From assembly GCA_017399555.1 (NCBI GenBank), contig JAFQBW010000064.1, positions 1 to 52,251 of the forward strand: 52,251 nt of DNA, in the 5' to 3' direction. The stretch is from Methanocorpusculum sp. (lineage in GTDB: Archaea; Halobacteriota; Methanomicrobia; Methanomicrobiales; Methanocorpusculaceae). The translations under genes and the position numbers were made by a program. The notes under the pieces were generated by a model that worked only from the letters and a program-made list of their open reading frames with translations, was not told the DNA's origin and ran no database searches. This document shows positions 125 through 51,967 of this stretch, in pieces (the stretch's first letter is position 1; each line of letters starts with the position of its first letter).

Positions 125-463
125 TTAGAGCGTTTCTAAAAGAGCTTTCAGATTTTCGCGAAGCGGCGGGATGTCATGGATAAGCGTATTCCATGTGGCA
201 TTCAAATCTACTGTCGCATATCCGTGAGCAAGTTTGTCCCGCATACCGGTTATCTGCTTCCAGGGAATTTCCGGGTGCTCCTCTCGGATGTCGCCTGGAA
301 TCTGCTTTGCGGCTTCACCGATGATTTCCAGAGAACGGATTAAAGCATTCTGGAAAAACGGGCGGGAAAAGAATTCGTCGCGGGAGATTGCCGGAAGCTC
401 GCTTTCGATAATCTCAATCTGTTCGAGCATGTCTGCGAGGTAGATTGTTACATCATACTTCAT
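125..463 (-). CDS. HepT-like RNase toxin (DUF86), pair 1
   Basis: A 112-aa all-helical protein of the HepT/DUF86 family. The RX4HXY signature is R75, H80, Y82 (RDKLAHGY), which in HepT proteins forms the RNase site. Its start codon overlaps the stop of the nucleotidyltransferase gene upstream by 4 bp (ATGA), the usual MntA-HepT order. In this family the MntA partner neutralises HepT, by AMP addition near the tyrosine in characterised systems. Full length, no sign of damage. Toxin activity here is inferred from family and pairing. Confidence 0.85.
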   Translation of the reverse strand: MKYDVTIYLADMLEQIEIIESELPAISRDEFFSRPFFQNALIRSLEIIGEAAKQIPGDIREEHPEIPWKQITGMRDKLAHGYATVDLNATWNTLIHDIPPLRENLKALLETL

Positions 464-795
464 ACAGTCGCTTCTCCTCCTGCCTCAAACAGAATCATAT
501 CCGGCTCGACAAACGCAAAAAGCCGCGGCTTCATCCATTTCAGAGAGACAAAGTCCACATCGCGCCCGAAAAGCGTTTCTAAATACTCCACGAGTTCTGC
601 GGTCTGGAACAGCCCGGTATCCGCATCCTCACGGAAGAGATAGAGAACATCCACATCACTCTCCGGCGTGTCTTCTCCGCGGGCGACAGAGCCGAAGATG
701 CCGATTTTCTCTATGGCAAAGCGTACGCTGATTTCGGGAAGACTTGCCTGGAGTTTGGCTATGACGTCCTCTTTGATACTTTCGTACGCCTGCAT
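460..795 (-). CDS. MntA-like minimal nucleotidyltransferase, pair 1
   Basis: A polymerase-beta-like nucleotidyltransferase of 111 aa, the antitoxin partner of the HepT gene that it overlaps by 4 bp. The motif GSVARG (35-40) is followed by D47 and D49, with a third acidic residue at D81, so the three metal-binding carboxylates are present. An in-frame extension to 918 exists but adds about 41 residues lacking family similarity; the ATG at 795 gives the usual family length. It probably adds AMP to HepT or otherwise blocks it. No substrate evidence beyond family. Confidence 0.82.
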   Translation of the reverse strand: MQAYESIKEDVIAKLQASLPEISVRFAIEKIGIFGSVARGEDTPESDVDVLYLFREDADTGLFQTAELVEYLETLFGRDVDFVSLKWMKPRLFAFVEPDMILFEAGGEATV

Positions 796-968
796 ATCTG
801 ATAGTATTTTTGCGGGAGATGATATGATTGTTTTGGTGATGCCAAACCCACGCGCACGAAACCTCCGCATCAACCTTTCAAAAAAGTTCAGAATGAGATA
901 TATTCTGCACAATCGCATATATTTCTTTCCCGCACCAAATCTTCACAGAGCGAACACAAATAAATACG

Positions 969-1670
969 ATGAAAAACACTGTTACCTGTATGAAGAAAAT
1001 CTTAGTGCTCGCCGCAGCCCTGTGCTTGGCGCTCTGCGTCTTTGGTGCAGGCTGTGTCGACAATGACGAACCCTCCGGCGGGGGAGGCGCTTCTTCGGGT
1101 GAAGAGCTTGACGTAAAAGTCGGCGACAGCTTCACCATTGGAACGTACAACGGCAAAGCCCTCGAATGGGACGTCCTTGCCGTAGACAAGAAAAACGAAA
1201 AGGCTCTTTTAATCACAAAGGATTGTATCGGCTACGTCAGATTCCACGACACTCAGCCGCCGGAAGACTTGACCTGGGAGACCAGTACCCTTCGTGCATG
1301 GCTTGCCGGAGAGTTTGCTGATGCGGCATTTTCCAACGCAGAAAAAGCAGACATTCTCACCGTGGTAAACAGCAACCCGCCAAACTCTGAAAACGGAGTT
1401 TTTGCAGGAGACAGCACGGAAGATACGGTCTTTGTATTAAGCGAATCCGAGATGCGTCAGTACTATCCAAACCCTGAGGATATGGCTGCCTTCTACAACG
1501 GAGAAGGAGTATCCTACTGGACCAGAACTCCGGGAGATAATCAGCAGGGATACATCTGTACATACTCAGGCGGCGGAGACCTCTACATGACCGGAAACTT
1601 CGCAATCAGCGACGCAGTCTGTGTACGTCCTGCCTTCTGGCTTGACCTCTCAGCAGACGAGGAAGAATAA
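969..1670 (+). CDS. DUF6273-type lipoprotein
   Basis: A 233-aa secreted lipoprotein. A hydrophobic signal segment ends in the lipobox FGAGC (C29), followed by an acidic/Gly-rich linker (about 30-50) and a globular domain with DUF6273 hallmarks: WDVLAV, ITKDCI, a TWETSTLRAWL stretch, then SYWTRTPG and a final VRPAFWLDL. Such domains resemble formylglycine-enzyme/C-type-lectin folds and have no settled function. ATG at 990 is an equally good start and gives a more typical MKK- signal peptide. TATA-like CATATATTT lies near 917-925. A decayed relative is at 4444-4590. Confidence 0.75.
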   Translation: MKNTVTCMKKILVLAAALCLALCVFGAGCVDNDEPSGGGGASSGEELDVKVGDSFTIGTYNGKALEWDVLAVDKKNEKALLITKDCIGYVRFHDTQPPEDLTWETSTLRAWLAGEFADAAFSNAEKADILTVVNSNPPNSENGVFAGDSTEDTVFVLSESEMRQYYPNPEDMAAFYNGEGVSYWTRTPGDNQQGYICTYSGGGDLYMTGNFAISDAVCVRPAFWLDLSADEEE

Positions 1671-1686
1671 CCCTCTCTTTTTTCCC

Positions 1687-2055
1687 TCACTCCGCAAGAA
1701 CCCGCTCAAGCTCCTCCTTATATGCCAGAAGCTCCTCTTTTGACTTGCCCGCAAAGACCACCTGCGGACGCGAGAGAAGCGCATGCATCTGCTCAAAGCG
1801 GACAGCCTCATCCTCTGCCATCTTTGCCGCAGTCTCCGCATGCAGCGCACGCCCGCAGGACGAACAGAACCGGGCATCTTTCACCGTCAGCGAACCGCAG
1901 ACAGGACATGCCCCTGCCCCGGCAAACGCAGAAATCGCATCCCGCATAAAGTCAGTTGCCTTTATTTCGCGCGCTTCTGCCCGTCTCTCAACCTCATCAT
2001 ACATATCCTGATTCATCCGAAACGTAACCTGCGTCGTTATTACTTTAAATCCCAT
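1687..2055 (-). CDS. Ribbon-helix-helix protein with zinc ribbon
   Basis: A 122-aa protein starting at ATG 2055. Residues about 5-45 (TQVTFRMNQDMYDEVERR and following) look like a ribbon-helix-helix DNA-binding unit. Then comes a CPVCG...FCSSCG zinc ribbon (about 52-70) and a charged helical tail. The longer frame to 2124 is rejected because the TATA-like element (about 2078-2086) falls about 25 bp upstream of 2055, suggesting a leaderless transcript. It is divergent from the ATPase gene at 2159 and probably regulates the shared promoter. Function inferred. Confidence 0.6.
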   Translation of the reverse strand: MGFKVITTQVTFRMNQDMYDEVERRAEAREIKATDFMRDAISAFAGAGACPVCGSLTVKDARFCSSCGRALHAETAAKMAEDEAVRFEQMHALLSRPQVVFAGKSKEELLAYKEELERVLAE

Positions 2056-2056
2056 G

Positions 2057-2086
2057 CATATATTATCTGTTTTCCAACATATATTA
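2057..2086. promoter_or_regulatory. Tandem CATATATTA sites between divergent genes
   Basis: The nonamer CATATATTA occurs at 2057-2065 and 2078-2086, 21 bp apart, which is two helical turns. The second copy is placed as TATA box for the minus-strand gene; the pair could also be an operator for its ribbon-helix-helix product. A separate TATA-like run near 2130 serves the plus-strand gene. Operator role is inference. Confidence 0.4.
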
Positions 2087-2158
2087 ACTTTACATTCTGC
2101 GCAGTTTTCGTTAACGCACTCCAAACATACTTAAATTTAAAGTTACATAAAGTCATTC

Positions 2159-3832
2159 ATGCAAATTATTGCTGAAGACAAAACCAACATCGAAGACCTC
2201 AAACTCGAGGCATTCTTCGGTCCTGTATCGAATGTCGAACCAATCGAACTTCCGCCTCCCCCCGAAACGGAATCCGCACTCCCCATCACCGTCCCTCTGG
2301 GTTCCACATCCAGAGTCCTGCTTGAATCCGCAAACTCCGCAATCCGCGCCTACAACCGCAGAAACGGCGAATCCGTCTTCTTCCGGGACAGCAGACTCGT
2401 TGAAGTAATCAAAGACAAAAGCGGAAAACCGCAGATTCGAGAGCTTACCGCAGACCGCATGCTCTCCATCCTTACCAGAAACGCCTACTGGGAAGACCAC
2501 CAGACCGAAAAAGACATCAGACTCTCCATCTCCCACGCCCGCGTAGTACTCACCTCCCTGCCCGCAGAACTGCCTGACATCCGCGAACTTGCCGGACTCT
2601 ACACCGGCGTTCTCATGACTGAGAACGGAATTACTGCCGAGCCGGGATACCACGAAGAGACAGGACTCTACCTCACCAACGGCTACCCCGTCCCTGCCGT
2701 GCCGGAGAATCCGTCTGCGGATGACATCCGGCAGGCCCGCGCCCTCTTCGAAAACCTCTTCGGAGAGTTCCGCTTCTCGTCCGTCACGGACTTCGAAAAC
2801 ACCGTACTTGCCGTCCTCACCCTCGTCTGCCGCCGCATGATCGAAGGCCCTGTCCCCATCTGGGTTGTGGACAAAAACGTCTCCGGCGCCGGAGGAACGC
2901 TGCTCTGCCAGACCGTTGGAACTGCAGCCCTCGGTGTCATCCCGCAACCCAACAGAACAACCGCATCGCCTGAGGAGATGGAAAAGCAAATCACCTCCGC
3001 GATTATCGCGGGCAGACCGTTTGTCATCCTCGACAACGCATCCCGCGGCACAAACTGGGCACCGGACATTCTGCTGACCGCAACGTCCGGCACAGGACAC
3101 GTCGAGGTCAGGCGTCTTGGAAGTTATGACACCGTATCATGCGAAAAGCCCATGACCTTCGCCGTCAACGGAATTAATCTGGACTGCCGGGCAGACGTCT
3201 CCCGCAGAGTGTACAAGACGCGGCTTTCCACCTCCCGCGCTCTGGCAGATGAAGCGCCCTTTAAGCGTTCCAAGTCCGAGCTTCTTGCATTCGCCGAAGC
3301 AGTGCATCCGGAAATTGTCTGGGCGGCAGGAGTGTTTTATGCCGCATGGAAAGCCGCGGGATGTCCAGCGCCAAAGCCGTGCGAGGGAAACATCTCCGAG
3401 TACGACACCTGGTACACCCTCTGCGGGGGCTGCATGACCGCTGCCGGATACACGGAGTTCCTGTCCAACCTGCGCGAGCTTCAGACCGGAGACAACGGAT
3501 TCGACGAAGACGGAAAGGCAGTAATCGAACTGCTTGCCGCACGCTTCAAAGACGAGCTGTTCTCCCCAAAAGCTCTGCAGAAGATGCTTGTCGAAGAAGG
3601 GCAGATGCGAAGAACCGGGAACGGATATGACGGACTGCTGAACTATGCACCGGACAGGCTTGTGCAGTCTGCGGTATCCGGAACGCTTACCACGCAGTCT
3701 GTCGGGCTTTGGATGAAGGAGTATGTGGATGTGAAGTTTGCCGGATGCCCCAAGTATCTGCAAAAGATGAAGCAGCCTGAGGGTAACCGGTATCAGATTC
3801 GAGAGGTGATTCCCCAGAGTACGCTTAGCTGA
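2159..3832 (+). CDS. Orphan SF3/primase-type ATPase, Walker A lysine missing
   Basis: A 557-aa protein resembling the helicase half of plasmid and virus primase-helicases. A GYHEETGLYL motif (163-172) precedes an AAA+-like core: P-loop-like VSGAGGTL (241-248), Walker-B-like VILDN (289-293), and an arginine-finger-like DVSRR (346-350). The lysine expected at 246 is glycine, so ATP hydrolysis is doubtful. The C-terminal third (about 360-557) is alpha-helical with no recognised domain. No replication gene lies beside it, so it may be a domesticated remnant of an integrated element. The gene is intact and GC-rich like its chromosomal neighbours. Confidence 0.5.
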   Translation: MQIIAEDKTNIEDLKLEAFFGPVSNVEPIELPPPPETESALPITVPLGSTSRVLLESANSAIRAYNRRNGESVFFRDSRLVEVIKDKSGKPQIRELTADRMLSILTRNAYWEDHQTEKDIRLSISHARVVLTSLPAELPDIRELAGLYTGVLMTENGITAEPGYHEETGLYLTNGYPVPAVPENPSADDIRQARALFENLFGEFRFSSVTDFENTVLAVLTLVCRRMIEGPVPIWVVDKNVSGAGGTLLCQTVGTAALGVIPQPNRTTASPEEMEKQITSAIIAGRPFVILDNASRGTNWAPDILLTATSGTGHVEVRRLGSYDTVSCEKPMTFAVNGINLDCRADVSRRVYKTRLSTSRALADEAPFKRSKSELLAFAEAVHPEIVWAAGVFYAAWKAAGCPAPKPCEGNISEYDTWYTLCGGCMTAAGYTEFLSNLRELQTGDNGFDEDGKAVIELLAARFKDELFSPKALQKMLVEEGQMRRTGNGYDGLLNYAPDRLVQSAVSGTLTTQSVGLWMKEYVDVKFAGCPKYLQKMKQPEGNRYQIREVIPQSTLS

Positions 3833-3837
3833 GCGTT

Positions 3838-4443
3838 TTTTGGAATTTGGATGTTTCTTCATCTCCCTGCATAGTTGAGAGAGAGGTATGCAGGGATTTT
3901 GCAGTCATTTCTGGTTTGTTTTTTCATTTTGAACTCGTATGGAGGTTTTGCATACTCTGGATACTTTTTTTGTCTGCTTTGGCTCTGTACTGTTGGAACG
4001 GGTGTTTTCTATTTTGGATATTTTTTCTGTCCAGAGTATGCATATCCTCCATTCTGCCGTTATTTGTGAAATGAAACGATATAAGCCTGCAAAATTTATG
4101 GACAGTCTGCATAGTGTACGGAAAAAAGAATGTGATGGTTTCATCGAAGTGGAAGGAATGGTATATTGTTGCGCTGCCTTCTTTTCATTCTCCTCAGCGC
4201 AACAAACATGATTTGATTTATTGGACCTATTTCCTGGCTGGAGAGAGTCATCCTCAAACCCTGCTCCAGATTAATAATACCCGTTGTTAATATAAAAAAT
4301 TACCCCGCGCAAGCCAATATCGCAGAAATTATCGGGAAAAGTGAGAATAGAATATATTACATCACAATGTTATATAAAATTTACCCGGAGGTATAATTCA
4401 CAGCGGGAATAATATTATATACTATCTGTGCAATAGAATCCTG
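3838..4443. other. Gene-poor AT-rich region with imperfect foldback
   Basis: No convincing gene. An inverted repeat of 22 bp (3940-3961 with 4030-4051, 20 matches) centres on GCATACTCTGGA. Weaker matching continues outward (ATTTTGCAG near 3895, its complement near 4090), giving a foldback of about 220 bp. Open frames here have no initiation signal or family resemblance. The right part (4270-4443) is very AT-rich and looks like the remains of a promoter for the broken gene that follows. Confidence 0.5.
3940..4051. repeat. Inverted repeat around GCATACTCTGGA
   Basis: Arms 3940-3961 and 4030-4051 match at 20 of 22 positions with 68 bp between them. No transposase, terminal direct repeat or T-run was found. 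It may be a degraded foldback element. Confidence 0.6.
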
Positions 4444-4590
4444 TATGAAGAAAACACTGTTACCTGCCCGGGGTTAATGGGGCAGAAAAGACAGTGTCCC
4501 TCCGCTGGAGTTCCAGTGAGGGGGGGACTTCTTCTAGTGAAGAGTCCCCGGTAAATCGGTGACACCTTCACGCTTTGGAATATCTCGGTG
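4444..4590 (+). pseudogene. Decayed DUF6273 lipoprotein fragment
   Basis: ATGAAGAAAACACTGTTACC at 4444 repeats the start of the lipoprotein gene at 969, and the segment around 4525-4580 aligns well with positions about 1078-1152 of that gene (shared words CTTCTTC, GTGAAGAG, TCGG.GACA.CTTCAC, TTGGAA). An in-frame stop falls soon after the start, the signal peptide region is lost, and nothing after about 4590 is clearly related. This is direct sequence evidence for a dead copy, or a dead paralogue. Confidence 0.6.
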
Positions 4591-4674
4591 AATTCCTGAA
4601 TGAAGCAACTCGCGGCCGAAAAGGCGGCTTCCAAAAGTATTCACTGCAAAATAAAACGCATGAGGTGAAAACAC

Positions 4675-5253
4675 ATGACATTACCAATCGCAGAAAACGT
4701 AAAGCAGTCATTCGAATACGCCAAGGGCACGCTTTTTGGAAAGTGGGTTGACTGGCTTATCCTGATTGTCCTTACTATCATCCCGGTAGTCAACTTCATT
4801 GGTATCGGCAGATACCTGAAAATCTTCCGCGGTGAAGACCCAAGCATGGACGACATCGGAAAATGCTTCATGGACGGTCTCTTCGTCTTCGTAATCGGCT
4901 TCATCTATCTCATCATCCCCATGATTGTCGCAGTCATATTTGCCATCATCCCGATTATCGGATGGATAATTGACCTCGTAATCATGGTCGCAGCAGCCGC
5001 CCTCCTCATCCCGGCAGTCTACAACTTCGCCAACAAAGGATTCGGAGCTGCATTCGCAATCAAGGAAAGCATTGCAGAGATTAAGCAGATGGGCGTTGGA
5101 GCATACCTTATCTCCATTGTCGTCTTCATGCTCCTCTTCCTTGTAATCGCACTCTTAAACATCATCCCGGTAATTGGAACCATTCTTGGCTTCATTGTCA
5201 TGCCGTTCCTCCTTATCATGGGATTCAAGTACATCGCAAACCTGCTTGCATAA
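4675..5253 (+). CDS. DUF4013 membrane protein
   Basis: A 192-aa polytopic membrane protein with the DUF4013 pattern: an N-terminal amphipathic stretch, then paired hydrophobic segments (about 24-46, 68-100, 100-125, 140-192) separated by Gly/Pro-rich turns such as IIPVVNFIGIGRYLK and IIPVIGTILGF. GAGGTG lies 9 bp before the ATG and acts as a ribosome binding site. First of three co-directional envelope-related genes (4675-6770), spaced 15 and 62 bp apart. Its function is unknown. Confidence 0.75.
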   Translation: MTLPIAENVKQSFEYAKGTLFGKWVDWLILIVLTIIPVVNFIGIGRYLKIFRGEDPSMDDIGKCFMDGLFVFVIGFIYLIIPMIVAVIFAIIPIIGWIIDLVIMVAAAALLIPAVYNFANKGFGAAFAIKESIAEIKQMGVGAYLISIVVFMLLFLVIALLNIIPVIGTILGFIVMPFLLIMGFKYIANLLA

Positions 5254-5268
5254 ATTACACACACAATC

Positions 5269-5865
5269 ATGAACTGGAAAATCATTATCACGGGTATCTT
5301 CTGTGTTATCCTGATGGTCTTTTCCGCAGGATGCATTGACCTCCCGTTTGGAGGTTCAGAAGATGAGGGAGGACTTTCCTCCCTTGCCGCTCTTGCCGCT
5401 CTCTCCGGCGGAGAAATGAGCGAAGAAGATTTAGCTGTCTTCGCTGCCCTCATGGGCGGAGGCGGGGGCTTTGACCTCTCAGCCCTTGCCGGAATGTCCG
5501 GCGAAGACATGAGCGAAGAAGACTTGGCTGCCTTCTCTGCCTTAATGGGCGGAGGAGGCATGGGCGGATTTGATATGTCAGCCTTGATGGCCATGTCCGG
5601 TGAAGAAATGAGCGAAGAAGACATGGCTGCCTTATCCGGCCTCATGGGTGGAGGAAGCGGTTATGACATGTCTGCACTCGCAGGTTCGATGAACACCAAC
5701 CCAAGCGAAGATGGCTTTTCATATCTTGAAAACTACGGAGCTAGCAGTTCCGGAAGCGAAGATATCATGGCTATGATGGAAAGTCTTGGAGTGGACTTAA
5801 ACGAGAACGCCGGAAATGAGGCAGCAGAACTTGCATACCTCATGTCCTTTATCGGCGCAATGTAA
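5269..5865 (+). CDS. Lipoprotein with three MSEED/Gly repeats
   Basis: A 198-aa lipoprotein: signal segment 1-21 and lipobox FSAGC (C22). Residues about 35-133 hold three repeats of about 32 residues, each with SALA/SSLA, MSGE.MSEED and LMGGGG, very acidic and low in complexity. A less repetitive tail (134-198) follows. It lies 15 bp after the DUF4013 gene and is probably co-transcribed. No domain of known function; a membrane-anchored spacer or metal-binding acidic surface is possible but unsupported. Confidence 0.7.
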   Translation: MNWKIIITGIFCVILMVFSAGCIDLPFGGSEDEGGLSSLAALAALSGGEMSEEDLAVFAALMGGGGGFDLSALAGMSGEDMSEEDLAAFSALMGGGGMGGFDMSALMAMSGEEMSEEDMAALSGLMGGGSGYDMSALAGSMNTNPSEDGFSYLENYGASSSGSEDIMAMMESLGVDLNENAGNEAAELAYLMSFIGAM

Positions 5866-5927
5866 AGCTTTCAGAACAAAAATGGACGGCAGGCATTAGC
5901 TTGCCGCAAACCACGAGGTGATACAAA

Positions 5928-6770
5928 ATGGGATTTCTCGACCGAGCCATCAGCCGCGGAATCAGCCGCGGAGTAAGCAACGCCATAGGGGATGCCGTAC
6001 AGCAGGCTATAGCACCCAAAGTAGAACGCGTTGCAAACAAGATGTCTGACGAAATCGACAAAGCAGCAGCATCCGCTGCAGAAGAGCGCGAAGCACAGCA
6101 GAAGCAGCGCGCTTCCACCGGCATGTTTGCAAACCTCCAGAAATCCGCAGAAAACTACGCAACCGAGATGTCCAAAAACATCAAAATCTGCCCCAACTGC
6201 GGAGAGTCATCTCCCAAAGAGAAAGACTTCTGTCCGCACTGCGGAACAAAACTGCCGGACAAAACAGCCGCTGACGGATATGTATGTACCGCCTGCGGAT
6301 TACAGAACACGGTAGGCACCAAGTTCTGTTCAGGATGCGGAGAAAAGCTTCCCGCAGCCGTCGAAGAAGAAGAGAACGCACGGCTTGCTGACGAAAAAGT
6401 CCTTGGCGAAGACTGGGACACCTACCTTGCCCCGTATCCGAAGTGGCAGAATGGAGGTTCCGGCTTTGACATCGAACAGATAGGAGAGGACAACGGACAT
6501 CCGATGTACGAGTTCCGTGCAACCGGTGTCGGCAGAAACGACCTTCTGGACTACAAGGAACTCTTAAAGCAGAACGGCTTTGCCCGCCCGCCGGGATGGA
6601 GCAGTGATGAGGAACTCTACAAAGTAATCGACGGAGTAAGCTACAGTGTCAATTCCACTGAGCCGTTCCCGTGCGAGCCGGGGCATCTTCAGCTCTGCTT
6701 CCATGTCCGTGAATTCAAGCCGCCGGAGCAAAAGAAGGCAGGAGGGCTGTTTGGCGGATTGTTCAAGTAA
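5928..6770 (+). CDS. Double zinc-ribbon protein
   Basis: A 280-aa soluble protein. Residues 1-85 are helical and basic/acidic mixed (start MGFLDRAISRGIS). Two CxxC-x10-CxxC zinc ribbons follow: C88/C91/C102/C105 and C120/C123/C134/C137. A globular domain (about 155-265) is unrecognised, and the tail is GLFGGLFK. GAGGTGAT precedes the ATG. The N-terminal helix and C-terminal Gly-Leu-Phe repeat could bind a membrane or the DUF4013 partner upstream, which is inference from gene order. Confidence 0.65.
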   Translation: MGFLDRAISRGISRGVSNAIGDAVQQAIAPKVERVANKMSDEIDKAAASAAEEREAQQKQRASTGMFANLQKSAENYATEMSKNIKICPNCGESSPKEKDFCPHCGTKLPDKTAADGYVCTACGLQNTVGTKFCSGCGEKLPAAVEEEENARLADEKVLGEDWDTYLAPYPKWQNGGSGFDIEQIGEDNGHPMYEFRATGVGRNDLLDYKELLKQNGFARPPGWSSDEELYKVIDGVSYSVNSTEPFPCEPGHLQLCFHVREFKPPEQKKAGGLFGGLFK

Positions 6771-6870
6771 AAACCCTCAGTTATTCCAATAGGCATGAAT
6801 CACCCTCAAATATCCATACAATACCACACCACTCTTTTTGGATGGAAACCATCCAACCCCTTCTAAATAT

Positions 6871-7203
6871 TTAATCTGATAAAAGAGCTTCAATCTGTTT
6901 TTGCAGAACAGGAATTGTCTCTGTTGCCAGTTCCCAGAGATACTGGATATCTATTGAAAAGTAGCTGTGAATCAGTTTGTCACGAAATCCTGCCATCCCG
7001 CGCCATGCAATATCAGGATGCTGGTCACGGAACTCTTGCGGAATATGCTTTGCTGCCTCACCGATAATCTCAAAACTGCGGGACATAGCATTTAGAAAAA
7101 TAACATTCTCTTTCAATCCTTCACACGTGGTCTGTGCAGAAATCTCCTGGATTACTTTCGTCTGTTCGAGAATGTGGGTAAGGAAAATGGATATATCTTT
7201 CAT
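6871..7203 (-). CDS. HepT-like RNase toxin (DUF86), pair 2
   Basis: A 110-aa HepT protein with R74, H79, Y81 in RDKLIHSY. Clearly homologous to the copy at 125-463 (shared SFEIIGEAAK, IPQEFR/IPGDIR, HPDIAW/HPEIPW) but well diverged, so not a recent duplication. It overlaps the nucleotidyltransferase gene by 4 bp. Same predicted role as pair 1. Confidence 0.85.
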   Translation of the reverse strand: MKDISIFLTHILEQTKVIQEISAQTTCEGLKENVIFLNAMSRSFEIIGEAAKHIPQEFRDQHPDIAWRGMAGFRDKLIHSYFSIDIQYLWELATETIPVLQKQIEALLSD

Positions 7204-7523
7204 GCTTTTGCCGGATTACACGGAATACTGTCCGATACAATAAAGGGTTTCAGTTTTGGATGAATGCTCCTTTCAGTAAGCAGGTCAACCTTTCGTCCGA
7301 AAAGCACCTCTAAGAAATCACTCAGACTCAGGAAGTTCATGTATTTATCATATTCAGGGGAAAAGGAAACAACAAAATCAATATCGCTTTCTGCCGTATC
7401 TTCTCCGCGGGCAACAGAACCAAAGAGACTGATTGTCTCAACGCCGAATGTGTCTACGATCTCCGGCATCCGCTCATGAAGAGTAAGCAGGACGGCGGAT
7501 TTGATACTCGTATACTCGGACAT
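7200..7523 (-). CDS. MntA-like minimal nucleotidyltransferase, pair 2
   Basis: A 107-aa nucleotidyltransferase with GSVARG (35-40), D47, D49 and D80, the full catalytic set. It begins MSEYTSIKSAV and overlaps its HepT partner. It is the predicted antitoxin of pair 2. A MITE-like element begins 47 bp upstream of its start, so its promoter may lie in or near that insertion. Confidence 0.82.
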   Translation of the reverse strand: MSEYTSIKSAVLLTLHERMPEIVDTFGVETISLFGSVARGEDTAESDIDFVVSFSPEYDKYMNFLSLSDFLEVLFGRKVDLLTERSIHPKLKPFIVSDSIPCNPAKA

Positions 7524-7560
7524 TTCGTTATATTCTCATGGGTGCTGAATGGTATAAGTA

Positions 7561-7569
7561 TTTTGGCAT
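7561..7569 (+). repeat. Left target-site duplication of MITE
   Basis: TTTTGGCAT abuts the left terminal inverted repeat and recurs exactly at 8051-8059 against the right one: a 9-bp target duplication. The G that follows each copy is also identical. Confidence 0.75.
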
Positions 7570-8050
7570 GGCGTTGCCCATAAATTCAGTTTTGCTCCTA
7601 AACCCTGGACACTGCCTCTAAAATATCTATTCTGCTCCTAAAATTGATGTGTGGGTTTCCTCATTCATCTTAGATAAAAAAGGAGAATGCAGGCATTGTA
7701 TGACATTTGGAACACGAATCCACACTAATCAAGACGAATCGCGACCTCTAAAGGCGGCAGCTTAGCTCTGCTTATCGCAGAGCTGCCGCACGGTCGCTGA
7801 CGCCCTCGCAGTCGGCTCGGGCGAGCGGTTGAGAGAACTATTCCGCCCGAGCCGACTGCGAGGGCGCAAGCGTGCCGCGGCTTCCCGCGATAAGCAGGGA
7901 AAGGAGCCGTGAATAGGCATGCGATTTGTTTTGATTCGCGTGGATTCGTGTTCCCATGTTAGTGGATGCCCACAAATTCTTAGTTTTGCTCCTAAATTCT
8001 ATGGGTTACCCTTTTACTCACCATTTTTTTTGGAATTTATGGGCAACGCC
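7570..8050. mobile_element. 481-bp MITE-like element
   Basis: Perfect 18-bp terminal inverted repeats (GGCGTTGCCCATAAATTC at 7570-7587, its complement at 8033-8050) are bracketed by 9-bp direct repeats. There is no transposase, so the element is non-autonomous and depends on an enzyme encoded elsewhere. A long foldback (7711-7952) fills the middle, and TTTGCTCCTAAA is repeated near both ends. The terminal sequence was not assigned to a known insertion sequence family. Confidence 0.75.
7711..7952. repeat. Foldback core with 10-bp-phased AATC arms
   Basis: Outer arms 7711-7741 and 7922-7952 match at 27 of 31 positions and show AATC at 10-bp spacing. Inner arms 7801-7823 and 7844-7866 are a perfect 23-bp GC-rich inverted repeat around a 20-bp loop. 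Between them the arms match less well (TGCTTATCGC near 7769 against GCGATAAGCA near 7888). The core probably represents a separate element nested in the MITE. Confidence 0.75.
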
Positions 8051-20285: not shown

Positions 20286-21056
20286 ATGCGCCTGCGGTTG
20301 TTTCTTGTGGTACTGATTCTCTTTGCGTTCTTTGTGATGCCTGCGGCAGGATATACAAACGGCATTTTATCGTCCCCGCTGTCTGAGATTACTTTAATCC
20401 CGGAAGAATTACAACGGTTCATAGCAGAGAGCCCTCTTTTATCGTATTTCCTTTTTGATGACCCCATATATGTATTGGAATTTCCTGAGATTGGGTTCTC
20501 CATACCTTCGAACGTTAAACCCACTATAAAAATTATTGTTGTAATTATTGGAATCATCATTATGCTTCTTGGTCTCTTTACTTCGGAGCGTATCTCCCAA
20601 TTCCACTTCCGAAGAAAACTCTCCGACAATCCAAAAAGCCGTGCCATGCAAATCCTTGCATATCTCAGAAAACATCCCGGAGCAACGCAGACAGAGATTA
20701 TCAAAGCAACCGGATATTCCCGCGGTTCTGTTGCATATAATCTGCAGAGACTTCAGCAGGATTGCAGAGTTTCCCAAATCACTTCCCGATACTATCCTGC
20801 AGATGAATATCCGACAGAAGAACAGGCAGGGGCAGACAGAGCTCTGAGAAATGCACAGAGACAGCGTATCTTCCGGATAATCGCAGAGAATCCCGGCATC
20901 TCCCGAAAGCAGCTCGCTGAGGAAATACAGATGCCGGTATCAACACTTCGCTGGCATCTGGGAAAACTGACAAAAGAACGTCTGGTTATCTCTGAGGTAA
21001 AACAGCACACAATCTGTTATTCGGTAAATCCTGAGTTTATTCGGCAGGATGAGTAA
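20286..21056 (+). CDS. Membrane-tethered double winged-helix regulator
   Basis: A 256-aa protein. A signal-like segment (1-21) and a membrane helix (about 80-100, IKIIVVIIGIIIMLLGLF) frame a short outside loop. The cytoplasmic part has two winged helices: about 118-170 (RAMQILAYLRKHPGATQTEIIKATGYS) and about 195-250 (QRIFRIIAENPGISRKQLAEEIQMPVSTLRWHLGKL). This layout is common in Methanomicrobia and suggests a regulator that senses an envelope signal. It lies just left of the McrBC cassette, on the other strand, and probably is not part of it. Confidence 0.75.
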   Translation: MRLRLFLVVLILFAFFVMPAAGYTNGILSSPLSEITLIPEELQRFIAESPLLSYFLFDDPIYVLEFPEIGFSIPSNVKPTIKIIVVIIGIIIMLLGLFTSERISQFHFRRKLSDNPKSRAMQILAYLRKHPGATQTEIIKATGYSRGSVAYNLQRLQQDCRVSQITSRYYPADEYPTEEQAGADRALRNAQRQRIFRIIAENPGISRKQLAEEIQMPVSTLRWHLGKLTKERLVISEVKQHTICYSVNPEFIRQDE

Positions 21057-21102: not shown

Positions 21103-21159
21103 GGGGTGCGGGGCGGCGACTTCGGCGCGGAGCCGCCCGCGGTGGAGATATCTTCTGCA
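21103..21159 (+). repeat. Left 57-bp inverted repeat of McrBC cassette
   Basis: Matches the reverse complement of 24489-24545 at 52 of 57 positions. It folds: 21111-21117 pairs with 21132-21138 (GGGCGGC/GCCGCCC) and 21121-21124 with 21128-21131. The inner 19 bases (21141-21159, GGTGGAGATATCTTCTGCA) are identical in both copies. Confidence 0.85.
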
Positions 21160-21195
21160 AAGCTAAGATTAGACTCTTATCTCTCTCATCTCAGA

Positions 21196-22212
21196 TTAAA
21201 AATGCTCATCTACAATATTATCAAGCTGTTTTGCAATCTCTGAAAAACCGCAATCCAGATTCAATGTACGAACACTGATTTTATTTCCGCTCATTTGATA
21301 GACAGCGTCTGGAAGAATTACCTCATCTGTTTTTGCATACAGGAGCATTCCTGATACATCTCCGCCACCCTCAGCTTTGTTTTTAACATAGGTGAAAATC
21401 TGGTAGAGATTTCCGGAATGAAGCGTGTGGACATCATACTGAACCTGTGTGGTACGACTGTAGTATTTTGCATCGACAATGAGTGTTTTCTCATTTGATG
21501 ACAGCATGATATCAGACTGCATTGTTGGAAGCATGAAATTCATTCCATCATCCAATGCCCAGGGAATCTGTGATGCTGAGACGTGAATTTCCGGGTGTTC
21601 TTTCCTGTAGTATTCCAGAATAAACTTCTCGTAAAGACGAGACATGCGTTGTTCATCCAAGAACTGCATCATCTTTACTGAGCCGTCTGTTGTTGTTTGG
21701 AGAAGTCCTTTCAGTACCAGATAACAGATAGAAAGAAGCATCTGATACGTTTGGTTGTGGCGGTTAAAACGGAGATTCCAATCAATATCGTATGGACTTA
21801 AGATACCAACGTCTTTGAAGTAGAATAGGATATTTCGCAGTCCCTTCTTTCTGGATTTTGGAATGTCTGCTCTTAGCAGAGACTCTATCGTTGTTTTCAA
21901 AATCCTGTTGTGATATGAATCAAGAGAAAAATCATCATAGGAACAGACCAACTGCTGTTTTGTGATGCTCTGTTGTTTGATAGATTCGGAGAGAGATATT
22001 TTACCTCGCAGAGAGCTAAGCGGTTCATGATATTCTTTGTACTCACGAAAAAGCCCGCGCTTAACCTGTGTAGTAACTCCTTTGATGAGAATTGCTGAGA
22101 GAAGGTCAGCAGTATTTTCAAAATCTTCTGCCGCACAGCTTGTGTACCCACTCTCTTTCAGAACCTGAAAGGCATAGCTTAGCATGTAGTAGATGTTCTG
22201 AATCCGAATCAT
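21196..22212 (-). CDS. mcrC: McrC: nuclease subunit of McrBC
   Basis: A 338-aa McrC. The N-terminal region (to about 150) is the helical McrB-contacting part; the C-terminal PD-(D/E)XK nuclease has E195 (YEKF), D234 (SDIML) and D247-A-K249 (IVDAKYY), so the active site is complete. With McrB it cuts DNA carrying modified cytosine or other modified bases, driven by GTP. The gene overlaps mcrB by 4 bp and ends 36 bp inside the left inverted repeat. Confidence 0.92.
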   Translation of the reverse strand: MIRIQNIYYMLSYAFQVLKESGYTSCAAEDFENTADLLSAILIKGVTTQVKRGLFREYKEYHEPLSSLRGKISLSESIKQQSITKQQLVCSYDDFSLDSYHNRILKTTIESLLRADIPKSRKKGLRNILFYFKDVGILSPYDIDWNLRFNRHNQTYQMLLSICYLVLKGLLQTTTDGSVKMMQFLDEQRMSRLYEKFILEYYRKEHPEIHVSASQIPWALDDGMNFMLPTMQSDIMLSSNEKTLIVDAKYYSRTTQVQYDVHTLHSGNLYQIFTYVKNKAEGGGDVSGMLLYAKTDEVILPDAVYQMSGNKISVRTLNLDCGFSEIAKQLDNIVDEHF

Positions 22213-24368
22213 TGAATGGAACTTCTAAGAGTATGCTCCCAGTTTTTCACTTTGCTTGGCTCGTCAAACCAGTATTCACTTAACAGAGGAAGAATCTCAT
22301 AGGTAATAACTGAGTTCAGCCACATGTCATCAACATCCTGTTTCGTGCAGAAGTAGCTGTGACCAATACGGAATCCGCGTCCAAGTGAGTCATCATTCTC
22401 AATTACTTTGTTCAGATTTTCGATAGAATCAATCAGGCGGTCAAACTTCGGATTATCTATCTCTTCACGATATTTTCTAAATCCTTCTGATGAGAATGCC
22501 GGAGACAGTTCATAGAAGGCAAACCGACGACGCAGAGCATAATCAAGGATGGCAAGACTTCGGTCTGCCGTATTCATCATACCGATTATGTACACGTTCT
22601 CCGGGACATCAAATTTCTCATCAGAGTAGAGAAGTTGGAGAGATACTCCGCGTTTGTCATTTTCGATAAGCATGAAGAGCTCACCGAAAATCTTGCTCAG
22701 ATTTCCTCTGTTGATTTCATCGATGATGAAGAAGTAATCATTCTCTTTGTCCTCATTTGCTTTCTTACAGAAGTTGTAGAATGGTCCTTTCTTCAATTCA
22801 AAGCCGGAAGCTGACGGGCGGAATCCCATGATAAAATCTTCATAACTGTAGTTCTGGTGGAACTGTACCATCATTACCCGATTCGGGTCTTTGATGCCCA
22901 TCAAAGAATATGCCAGCCGTTTGGCGGCAAAGGTTTTACCAACTCCCGGAGCTCCCTGCAGAATGACATTCTTTTTGTTTCTCAGGAGGGTGGTGAGAAT
23001 TTCATAATCGGATTTGCCCATGTAGACTTCTTTGAGGAAGTCTTCTTCGGTGTAAAGAGTGTCCTGTGTAGTGTCTCTTTCGATTTCCTCACCACTTTCG
23101 TCTTCAAAGAGTGACTTTATCTGTTCCACATAAGCAGTGTATGGTGTGACTTCTGTGAGCACTTGACTAGAGATATTTCCCTGACTACCCCATTCACCTT
23201 TATGTGTCCATGTTACTTTGCGTATATTTCGGAATTTTTCAGGCTGATTTTCGTCATAAATATAATCAGAAGTAACCACCCCTCTTCCAATAATATCTCC
23301 ACGACCACGTTTGGCAAATATTACATCACCTACTTTTATGTCGTGTACAAATTGCCAGATTTCAAGAGAGACACGAGTATAGGTGGCTGTTTTTCCGAAC
23401 TCATTACCAAACTCATTCACCTCACGTGCAGATTCTTCAATCTCTTTCCGCGATGCATACTGACTTAAATCTCCAAGAGAATCACGAGCGAGAGCCATTA
23501 TGTTAGATTGATAATACTCATCCCATTGTTTCGCCCCATATCCCGGAGTGTAAACCCAATATTGAATATTCTCAATACCTGCATCCCCAATAGCTTCCCC
23601 CACATTTGCTCTCCATTGATTTATCTCTTCTTTCGGTAACCTCCACGCAAAGTAAGAGAGCTCAGGGAAGTTTGTATATTCATAAGATTCTCTATCAAGC
23701 ACGTTCTTACAATCCTCAATCAGTTCAAGGTATTTCGCTGCAGATGGTACAACATTTAATTTCCCAGCTTTCTTGATAAAGTCAAGAGGCATTGTTTTTG
23801 GATTTTGGAGAATGTCACGATTTGTAGAATCAAGGTTCAGATATGTGTATGGGCGAATCCAGAACAAACCCATTGTAATATTCCATAGAATATTGCTCTG
23901 TTTTTGTACTAAATCATAGAGCTCTACGAATTTTGCTCTGTTTTCTTCCGTTGGATTGTCAGCATAATCCAAAGATGTAAGATAAAATCTCCAGAGGTTG
24001 TTGATATCATCCGGTTTACGTTTCTCGCCAAAACGATAGAAGAGAGAGTTCAGATTATTTAATAGAGGGATTCCGTCAAACGTTTCTGGGATAGGAGATA
24101 CCACAGAAAATTCTTGAGCAAAAGCCTGAATTATAGATATCCGGTTTACCAGACTATTTCCCCGATTAAACAAACCAAAAACTGTGAATGGGTCGACATC
24201 AAGGACAGGTTTTCCCTCTTCTTCCAATTTTAGAAGTGGCACTCCTGCAGTGATAAAGACTCTCTTTACTTTTTCAATAAGGTGGGTTCGATTTTCTACA
24301 AATGGACGTAGTTTATCAGCAAACTCCGTATAGAAATTTACCCAAGGCATATATTCGGCTTTATCCAT
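22209..24368 (-). CDS. mcrB: McrB: GTPase and DNA-recognition subunit of McrBC
   Basis: A 719-aa McrB-type protein. Residues about 1-330 are an N-terminal helical region. About 335-400 is an EVE/PUA-like fold (VGDVIFAKRGRGDIIGRG, WTHKGEW) that in related proteins flips and reads modified bases. The AAA+ motor begins near 465: P-loop GAPGVGKT (about 472-479), Walker B YFFIIDEINRGNLSK, and NTADRSLAILDYALRRRF. The start is ATG 24368, preceded by GGAGG 12 bp upstream; the longer TTG frame from 24461 lacks this. McrB-type motors use GTP. Confidence 0.9.
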   Translation of the reverse strand: MDKAEYMPWVNFYTEFADKLRPFVENRTHLIEKVKRVFITAGVPLLKLEEEGKPVLDVDPFTVFGLFNRGNSLVNRISIIQAFAQEFSVVSPIPETFDGIPLLNNLNSLFYRFGEKRKPDDINNLWRFYLTSLDYADNPTEENRAKFVELYDLVQKQSNILWNITMGLFWIRPYTYLNLDSTNRDILQNPKTMPLDFIKKAGKLNVVPSAAKYLELIEDCKNVLDRESYEYTNFPELSYFAWRLPKEEINQWRANVGEAIGDAGIENIQYWVYTPGYGAKQWDEYYQSNIMALARDSLGDLSQYASRKEIEESAREVNEFGNEFGKTATYTRVSLEIWQFVHDIKVGDVIFAKRGRGDIIGRGVVTSDYIYDENQPEKFRNIRKVTWTHKGEWGSQGNISSQVLTEVTPYTAYVEQIKSLFEDESGEEIERDTTQDTLYTEEDFLKEVYMGKSDYEILTTLLRNKKNVILQGAPGVGKTFAAKRLAYSLMGIKDPNRVMMVQFHQNYSYEDFIMGFRPSASGFELKKGPFYNFCKKANEDKENDYFFIIDEINRGNLSKIFGELFMLIENDKRGVSLQLLYSDEKFDVPENVYIIGMMNTADRSLAILDYALRRRFAFYELSPAFSSEGFRKYREEIDNPKFDRLIDSIENLNKVIENDDSLGRGFRIGHSYFCTKQDVDDMWLNSVITYEILPLLSEYWFDEPSKVKNWEHTLRSSIQ

Positions 24369-24488
24369 AGTGAATAGCTTCCTCCAAAGCTCAGATGATA
24401 GGTAATAGGATATCTGAAACAATAAGGATATCGAAGGGTCAGTCTTGGTGTATACATACAAAAACGGAAGTGAGATGCCGCACTAACC

Positions 24489-24545
24489 TGCAGAAGATAT
24501 CTCCACCGCGAGCCGCTCCGCGCCGGAGTCGCGGCTCCGCACCCC
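24489..24545 (-). repeat. Right 57-bp inverted repeat of McrBC cassette
   Basis: Counterpart of 21103-21159. Its stem is GAGCCGC (24510-24516) with GCGGCTC (24531-24537), and TCCG (24517-24520) with CGGA (24524-24527). Four of five differences from the left copy form two compensated base pairs; the fifth changes C-G to a T-G (U-G in RNA) pair. Confidence 0.85.
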
Positions 24546-24595
24546 GAAATTCAAAAAAATCTCAATCTGACAAACGGAATCTAACCAAAAAAGAA

Positions 24596-24668
24596 TACTC
24601 CTAGGCGGGTTCGAACCGCCGTCTCCGGCTCCAAAGGCCGGAATGATTGACCACTACACTATAGGAGT
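24596..24668 (-). tRNA. tRNA-Gln (UUG anticodon)
   Basis: A 73-nt cloverleaf with acceptor ACTCCTA/TAGGAGT, anticodon stem CCGGC with loop CTTTGGA (anticodon TTG), T arm GGCGG TTCGAAC CCGCC, discriminator A. No intron. Its 3' end faces the McrBC cassette 51 bp away. Confidence 0.93.
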
Positions 24669-25309
24669 ATTTGCTATACAGTATCGGTCTGCATAGTATT
24701 TCTAGATTTTTGAATCTGGTGTCGTGTTCTATTTCACTCGCAGAAACTATTAGCTGTATGGGAGCGAACTATATTTGGCGTTCCCATTTTTTATGGGGCG
24801 CTGTGATATAATGAATAAAAATAAAATACATATCAGTATTAATATCTCTCCCTCAATCCACATCGGTAGTATCAGTACTGATAGTGAATCAAAGAGGGAG
24901 AACGTATCGCGGTTGAGTAAAATGATATTTTGGAGAGTACTACTCCCAATTATCATTTCTCATCTCGATACATATAGTCTTTGGAGGAAAGTATTTTACC
25001 CTCACAAAGCCCATTATGTTTGTTAATACTGAAATAGTATTGTTATTCATATATCGCGAACAAAACGGTCTGATACGCCGTGAGTTCAACCGATTGGGCG
25101 CGGGGCTTTTAACCCCAAACCACTTTCGTTCCGCTTCTTTTCTGTTCTTGTTTCTCCGGTCTTAAGTATCTCTGGATTTTTGAATTCAGTGATGCGTCTT
25201 CCCGCGCCTATCTGTGAGATGGGATTCTCTGCGGCATTTCCGGGCGCTTTTGGCAGGTGTCAACCGCGTAGTTTTATATCTTGTAGGTACAATGTAATAA
25301 GGTAGTTGG
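24669..25309. other. Gene-free stretch between tRNA-Gln and tRNA-Leu
   Basis: No gene is supported. A plus-strand frame from ATG 24811 (71 codons, to 25026) has no ribosome binding site or known relative and is only weakly possible. A 12-bp palindrome ATCAGTACTGAT is at 24871-24882. A diverged direct repeat of about 27 bp (24695-24721 and 25165-25191, sharing GATTTTTGAAT) lies upstream of each tRNA. TATA-like TTTTATAT near 25272 fits the tRNA-Leu promoter. Confidence 0.5.
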
Positions 25310-51706: not shown

Positions 51707-51967
51707 TTCTAACAACCTCTATTTTTCAAAAAACTTCATGAAGCAACACGATAGTGTTGCATTACAGGAAGCGAGCGATTAGCGAAGCTTTCGCCCTCGA
51801 AACAGAAACTCATCCATAATAAATTCGTGTAGATTCGCGTGTCAGTTCACAAAAGACGCGAATCTACGCGAATATTAAGAAATATATTTGGAGGGGCGTT
51901 GTTGCTTCGTCGCTAATCGCTCCTCCGCTGCTCACGCAACACTATCGTGTTGCTTTTGCGGTTGTTA
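51707..51967. repeat. Foldback element (copy D)
   Basis: Ends TTCTAACAACC (51707-51717) and CGGTTGTTA (51959-51967) are inverted. Next inside are hairpins GCAACAC/GTGTTGC (51743-51760 and 51936-51953), then GAGCGATTAGCGAAGC (51773-51788) against 51904-51922 (3-bp gap). The centre is ATTCGTGTAGATTCGCGT (51823-51840) against 51855-51873. No coding content. The same family as 52-116 with a longer interior. Confidence 0.8.

Follow-up and report, generated by a model that had tools for sequence, protein, structure and literature searches.

The mcrBC restriction genes in a 52,251-nucleotide stretch of Methanocorpusculum sp. DNA (contig JAFQBW010000064.1, assembly GCA_017399555.1; the whole stretch is called the window below) lie between two inverted hairpin repeats, members of a dispersed family so far seen only in Methanocorpusculum or in contigs matching Methanocorpusculum. 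We propose that each repeat is a copy of a hairpin element resembling repetitive extragenic palindromes (REPs) or miniature inverted-repeat transposable elements (MITEs), which would fold on one strand with its GGGG end first, and that two facing copies with GGGG outward delimit a gene cassette, usually a defense system. Lineages would gain, lose, and swap such cassettes as whole units ending at the hairpins, and the hairpins would take part in the movement rather than merely adjoin the moved DNA. We regard this explanation, participation of the hairpins included, as somewhat probable. The direct observations behind it are the dispersal of the family, the covariation of its stem, an excess of outward pairs, the defense content of most cassettes, a close relative lacking mcrBC, and one identity step. 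The features at the cassette itself are the following.

21103..21159, + strand: left hairpin repeat, stem class GGGCGGC/GCCGCCC, GGGG end outward
21111..21138, + strand: left-arm hairpin core, with a 7-bp stem, a 3-nt bulge, and a 4-bp stem
24489..24545, - strand: right hairpin repeat, stem class GAGCCGC/GCGGCTC, GGGG end outward
24510..24537, - strand: right-arm hairpin core
21196..22212, - strand: McrC (Pfam McrBC, E 1.6e-42)
22209..24461, - strand: McrB-like AAA+ protein (AAA_5, 3e-24), open reading frame (ORF) starting at TTG

An earlier sequence-only reading had described the arms as an inverted 57-nt pair, and this pair was recovered exactly, with 91% complementarity (52/57) and the five differences at the positions it gave. 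The fold that it assigned to each arm, a 7-bp stem, a 3-base bulge, and a 4-bp stem, holds throughout the right arm and for the 7-bp stem of the left arm; the left 4-bp stem contains a T-G pair and is absent from the predicted minimum-energy fold. Neither arm is more stable than shuffled sequence (z -0.73 and -0.49). Folding energy is therefore uninformative here, and the case for structure must come from other copies. Between the arms lie only the two mcr ORFs, counting those of at least 100 aa with overlapping ORFs removed, plus a 101-aa antisense ORF inside mcrB; an in-frame ATG near 24368 is, by eye, the likelier start of the McrB-like protein.

At E ≤ 0.1, a 97-bp query around the left arm finds matches in 22 of 61 genomes, and among the matches listed, those below E 0.001 are all from the same genus. 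The window's own genome holds 13 family matches by sequence and 13 by covariance model. Two rounds of profile searching yielded 98 distinct copies, and removal of one weak copy left 97 in the alignment (90 distinct). That weak copy is a decayed hairpin-like match left of a helix-turn-helix (HTH) gene in the genome G023 (L100 510-563; E 0.007 by profile, 0.002 by covariance model). By covariance model the family is present in 12 of 25 Methanocorpusculum genomes with 2-36 matches each (E 0.01 to 0.05), counts that are minima (150 candidates scored per genome) and whose weakest matches are uncertain. Across named genomes, an exact pattern matched 55 stretches, comprising Methanocorpusculum or Methanocorpusculaceae records (such as M. 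parvum XII, UBA424, and SIG11) and seven contigs labeled bacterial. Four of these seven (L159, L164, L180, and L196) match Methanocorpusculum loci over at least 1 kb, and three (L148, L169, and L195) over 175-422 bp only, partly repeats; all seven are probably misbinned. The exact pattern had no match in viral contigs, and neither plasmids nor phages gave a family match. The genome G014, which we take to be M. labreanum, carries the family with 26 matches; Table 1 of PMC2686161 lists M. labreanum with 0 transposable elements.

The stem of the hairpin covaries across the 97 aligned copies, which answers the test that the sequence-only reading had suggested. Scored over stem columns 9-15/31-37 and 19-23/27-30 against 500 shuffles and slid controls, 96.1% of cells are paired compared with 85.8% in shuffles, 79 cells carry two-sided changes compared with 22.4 (slid controls, at most 16), and the covariation score is 0.284 compared with 0.126; none of the 500 shuffles reaches any of these values, and related copies inflate the cell counts. 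Of the five measures, two do not exceed their shuffled values: pairs with two-sided change (4 vs 3.6) and further pair types (13 vs 12.5). At least five stem classes occur across many loci. Among the 90 distinct rows the fully complementary classes are GGGCGGC (18), GGGCCGC (16), GGGACGC (16), and GAGCCGC (15), and a fifth class, GGAGGGC/GCCCGAC (8/90), retains a tandem G-A/A-G mismatch. The tag before the hairpin, GGGGTGCG, is invariant or at least 90% conserved at each position in the 97 copies. Because the stem sequence varies while pairing is kept, we lean toward the folded single strand as what is recognized. On the GGGG-first strand G-T pairs outnumber A-C pairs 57 to 7, and since this bias falls to 11 vs 7 without pair 20-29, it argues only weakly for the polarity of the fold. 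A long form of the hairpin (94-110 nt) has two additional arms in its loop; judged by eye, the paired sequences of these arms change in concert in the six examples (L224 7645-7740, L261 1314-1409, L262 2162-2259, L212 3241-3338, L211 4875-4968, and L194 4449-4558).

The arrangement of the copies was counted over 173 of them, at E 1e-4 or better. Neighbors less than 150 bp apart are inverted in 20 of 20 cases, 16 inward and 4 outward. In the window's clade, all ten close inward pairs join GGGCGGC/GCCGCCC with GAGCCGC/GCGGCTC, a constancy that can be explained by descent from one ancestral pair, and in the other clade all six close inward pairs are of unlike class. These pairs recast the paired swaps between the mcrBC arms, which the sequence-only reading had taken for compensatory changes arising within the cassette: the swaps are real, but they separate two old subfamilies. 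Both stem classes occur at many loci and are combined in all ten close inward pairs of the clade, a two-class pattern on which we reject divergence of the arms by compensation at the mcrBC locus; each mcrBC arm thus belongs to a different old subfamily. The unlike-class rule is not strict among outward pairs, which in the other clade are of unlike class in 2/3 cases at less than 150 bp, 4/8 at 150-1000 bp, and 7/11 at 1-12 kb, and which in the window's clade are of like class in 1/4 cases at 1-12 kb.

At the spacing of a gene cassette, outward pairs predominate. Gaps of 1-6 kb hold 14 outward pairs out of 24 (3 inward, 7 direct; p 5e-4), or 11 of 21 without three orthologous outward pairs (p 6e-3). 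Gaps of 150-1000 bp comprise 8 outward and 3 direct pairs, and gaps of 6-12 kb comprise 3 outward, 7 inward, and 3 direct pairs. The 14 outward pairs at 1-6 kb reduce to 11 independent loci, with mcrBC represented three times and a DUF368-type locus twice. Known or candidate defense genes occupy 8 of the 11, two of them broken, a count that rests on whole cassettes viewed before the choice of scans and hence was not blind. Their contents, including those of a defense-associated reverse transcriptase (DRT) and a cyclic-oligonucleotide-based antiphage signaling system (CBASS), are as follows.

mcrBC: Pfam McrBC, 1.6e-42
Gabija: GajA 3.7e-136, GajB 2.6e-153
DRT-UG5: RT_UG5-nitrilase, 2.9e-212
PD-Lambda-4: PD-Lambda-4_A, 1.7e-78
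type IIG enzyme: broken
AbiL and CBASS: AbiLi 2.7e-69, cyclase 1e-73
dGTPase: split
PDC-S06 (candidate system): 6.7e-159

Among the three outward pairs at 6-12 kb, one, with a spacing of 9.3 kb, encloses a type I-C CRISPR-Cas system. Together with the covariation across 97 copies, these cassette loci support the earlier suggestion that the structure of the hairpin is constrained and that the hairpin marks cassette ends.

Comparison of the mcrBC site among relatives gives the most direct view of exchange. Two features of the window flank the cassette at this site.

24595..24669, - strand: tRNA-Gln(ttg), directly outside the right arm
20286..21056, + strand: HTH protein, left of the mcrBC cassette

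In the genomes G018 and G009, which are of two species, mcrBC sits at this same site, with the same genes on the left and tRNA-Gln and tRNA-Leu on the right; farther right, G018 is not collinear with G009. The shared locus in all three genomes led us to reject three independent mcrBC insertions. Counted from the left hairpin's first G through the right hairpin's last C, G018 and G009 are identical at 3419 of 3439 positions (99.4%) with one gap, and 15 of the 20 internal mismatches are clustered near one end of mcrC. Over the 100 bp outside the hairpins, identity is 72% on the left and 85% on the right, and over the left 2.5 kb it is 84.5%. Because identity drops directly outside both hairpins, they appear to be where an exchanged unit ends. 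Compared with that of G009, the window's cassette is a mosaic, with 97% identity at the left end, 99-100% in the ATPase, 57-64% in the McrB N terminus, and 98% at the right end. The segment 23119-24165, corresponding to the N-terminal half of McrB, has no DNA match to G018 or G009 (57-64% to G009 over most of it), and McrB protein identity is 0.35-0.72 over residues 1-450 and 0.87-1.0 beyond. To judge from these alignments, the McrB N-terminal region appears to be a modular swap inside the cassette. The predicted system is like McrBC type IV restriction in its pair of McrC and AAA+ McrB genes and unlike it only in this swapped region.

The same tRNA-Gln(ttg) is the right neighbor of the site in G018, G009, and G023, and the HTH protein, missing from the site in G018 and G009, is present in G023 (95%), which lacks mcrBC. 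In G023, whose flanks are 95% identical to those of the window, the cassette together with its two arms is replaced by 42 bp; the difference may equally well stem from loss in G023 or from gain in the other genomes. The AbiL/CBASS cassette of G002 is missing from three relatives, in which its flanking genes sit side by side: in G016 and G014 a single long-form hairpin lies between these genes, in G020 none. DRT and Gabija sites in relatives offered no clean empty site. The sequence-only reading had held that an ancestral locus with the repeats and without mcrBC would count against it. On this point the result is mixed, G023 having neither mcrBC nor either repeat and two relatives at the AbiL/CBASS locus keeping one hairpin without the cassette, and overall that reading is partly supported.

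As for how the hairpins would take part in movement, they may act as structured ends for cutting and joining by a trans-acting enzyme, or they may provide short homology patches for recombination. A more specific form of the first option, a dedicated immunity-gene cassette system in which a putative trans enzyme would recognize the folded hairpin in its short or long form at outward-facing ends and move or swap whole defense systems from one chromosomal site or species to another, the unlike stem classes in close inward pairs serving in recognition, is speculative.

Several results weigh against exchange of hairpin-bounded defense cassettes. The identity step comes from one genome pair only, and on the right side from a short stretch only. 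By eye, no target duplication is seen at cassette flanks, including those of mcrBC, and Y1 transposase (PF01797) was found in 0/25 genomes (controls positive in 5/14), with no other enzyme family searched. Three of the 11 cassettes do not hold known defense genes, being two pentapeptide-repeat loci and one DUF368-type locus, and the other two outward pairs at 6-12 kb enclose surface-type proteins and core genes with a type IIG fragment, respectively (partly by eye). Control intervals (108 ORFs in 20 inward or direct intervals) also give PADLOC matches, which include, among the best 25 of 107 families, DrmD (4e-114), SoFic in four, mads_3 in two, and TmtA (2.9e-57). The asymmetry between the genes nearest the two sides of a hairpin is borderline: at PADLOC E ≤ 1e-30, the inner (56) side matched in at least 13 of 72 protein clusters and the outer (GGGG) side in at most 6 of 74 (p 0.06), in a test that covered 132 of 173 copies and scanned part of the 72 inner clusters. 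A random sample gave 7/27 inner vs 2/30 outer (p 0.05), both outer matches resembling general ATPases by eye. Finally, in MITE-like elements of the window's clade (described below), the hairpins are enclosed by terminal repeats of another kind and turn their 56 side outward.

The sequence next to the hairpin also invites a reading as an insulator or terminator, which we judge rather unlikely as a full explanation. A U-rich tract and hairpin, directed inward at both ends, would block outside transcription from entering costly defense genes; close pairs would be two-way terminators between convergent genes, and the repeats would be retained for this function and would not move the genes. This agrees with a T-rich tract located 7-14 nt ahead of GGGG, where T makes up 60-79% at each of 8 positions, with T-runs of at least 5 in the last 30 nt of 50/97 copies (A-runs, 12/97), and with the same inward strand being presented at both cassette ends. 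Flanking genes are convergent at 34 of 69 copies (p 1e-5 vs 0.25), some loci being counted twice and genes being called by a crude caller; the 69 are those of 111 copies in fetched loci that have both neighbors called and lie outside called ORFs. The identity step at both hairpins and the two-class pattern are left unexplained by it. A terminator role is possible in addition, and would be compatible with a role as cassette end.

Alternatively, the hairpins could be passive bystanders, with REP/MITE-like elements and defense genes gathering in tolerant intergenic sites and exchange proceeding by ordinary homologous recombination via short identical patches. The defense genes in control intervals and the borderline asymmetry between inner and outer sides are in keeping with this, as are single hairpins without a cassette and, in group B, hairpins embedded in longer mosaics of other repeats. 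We nevertheless consider it unlikely, given the outward excess at 1-6 kb, the filling of most outward cassettes by defense systems, and the identity steps at both GGGG ends. A role as a structured RNA transcribed from the GGGG-first strand, either as a gene in its own right or as an element within an mRNA, and unrelated to mobility, would fit the covarying stem, the long form with its two further variable arms, and the weak G-T bias, but is very improbable, since copies occur in either orientation relative to neighboring genes, inverted pairing is unexplained, and Rfam gave no match at the arms at the gathering threshold, by which a known RNA family was rejected there.

The proposed element has parallels among known repeats. 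According to passages in PMC2817692, REPs, together with bacterial interspersed mosaic elements and REP doublets forming hairpins, all associated with REP-associated tyrosine transposases (RAYTs), are dispersed intergenic imperfect palindromes that keep paired changes and occur in opposite-orientation pairs, as here; rayt genes lie between two inverted REPs, which in E. coli differ from each other, a framing like that of the mcrBC cassette. The Methanocorpusculum family differs in its tag (GGGGTGCG, compared with GTAG in REPs), its at most 36 matches per genome, its defense cargo, and its archaeal host, and the finding of Y1 transposase in 0/25 genomes leads us to reject a RAYT-driven REP. REP-like intergenic palindromes have been reported in archaeal genomes; the six archaeal species tabulated in PMC12306157 do not include Methanocorpusculum, and the relevant passages of that source mention no defense cassette.

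Like defense islands and composite transposons, the cassettes are defense modules present or absent between constant flanks; unlike them, a cassette generally contains a single system, with copies of the same small hairpin as its borders, and the mcrBC ends are 57-bp repeats rather than insertion sequences. The attC sites of integrons are hairpins with a conserved bulge, a variable terminal part, and long and short forms, a likeness to the hairpin described here. They are direct, whereas the mcrBC ends are inverted, and what we take to be the integron core sites do not match the hairpin.

None of the papers listed in an open-access literature search dealt with the Methanocorpusculum repeat or with hairpin-bounded defense cassettes. 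Hairpin repeats with paired changes are known from the REP/RAYT system; what is new is their framing of defense genes in an archaeon without a known transposase for the hairpin. This bears on the open question of how defense systems move as single clean units. In one archaeal genus, a covarying hairpin serves as a cheap marker that brackets McrBC, Gabija, DRT, CBASS, type IIG, dGTPase, and CRISPR-Cas loci, and in one case the exchanged stretch stops at the marker. It offers a direct route to the responsible enzyme and to new defense candidates, such as the pentapeptide-repeat cassettes and other hairpin-flanked genes. The pentapeptide-repeat proteins (L213 868-2109 and L218 1666-3354) have no PADLOC match and are candidate new defense genes.

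In the window's clade, the family also occurs within elements of ~260-400 bp that have inverted ends and no gene. Four of these (290-294 bp; L283, L036, L019, and L102) have an inward hairpin pair at the center and terminal repeats that contain GGATTTCTAACAACC, and one of the four has precise empty sites in G018 and G009. The inverted ends, the central hairpin pairs, and the empty sites are MITE-like; unlike in these elements, the hairpins of the mcrBC cassette face the other way round, and no MITE-type terminal repeat was seen at that cassette. A further MITE-like element (L294 ~1500-1885) has the same terminal repeat, no detected hairpin, and a 17-bp flanking direct repeat, the only clear sign of a target duplication seen; the other pairs listed have no direct repeat longer than 7 bp. 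Near both ends of the window, 51707-51731 and 100-118 resemble the terminal repeat of the clade's MITE. In the group B cassettes L210, L218, and L220, inverted homology extends outside GGGG by up to ~290 bp, and the ends of L218 are long forms.

Some further loci were noted in passing. In L169, a contig labeled Bacilli, DndC- and DndD/PbeC-like genes (307-7755) adjoin a hairpin at 7871-7926, and only ~175 bp around the hairpin match Methanocorpusculum loci. In L164, labeled Acholeplasmataceae, AAA ATPase, cyclase-like, and membrane genes lie between two outward hairpins (424-5146), and the contig is 89% identical to the AbiL/CBASS locus of G002 over 1.1 kb. At an orthologous place (L104 950-1100 vs L115 997-1170), G000 has an inward pair and G006 an outward pair. 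G016 has two copies of the beginning of the type IIG cassette, each including the hairpin and the adjoining 45 bp on the outer side (C1 ~167454 and 1580990; L084 and L080); they are identical at 99.8% over 443 bp and at 100% over the 45 bp.

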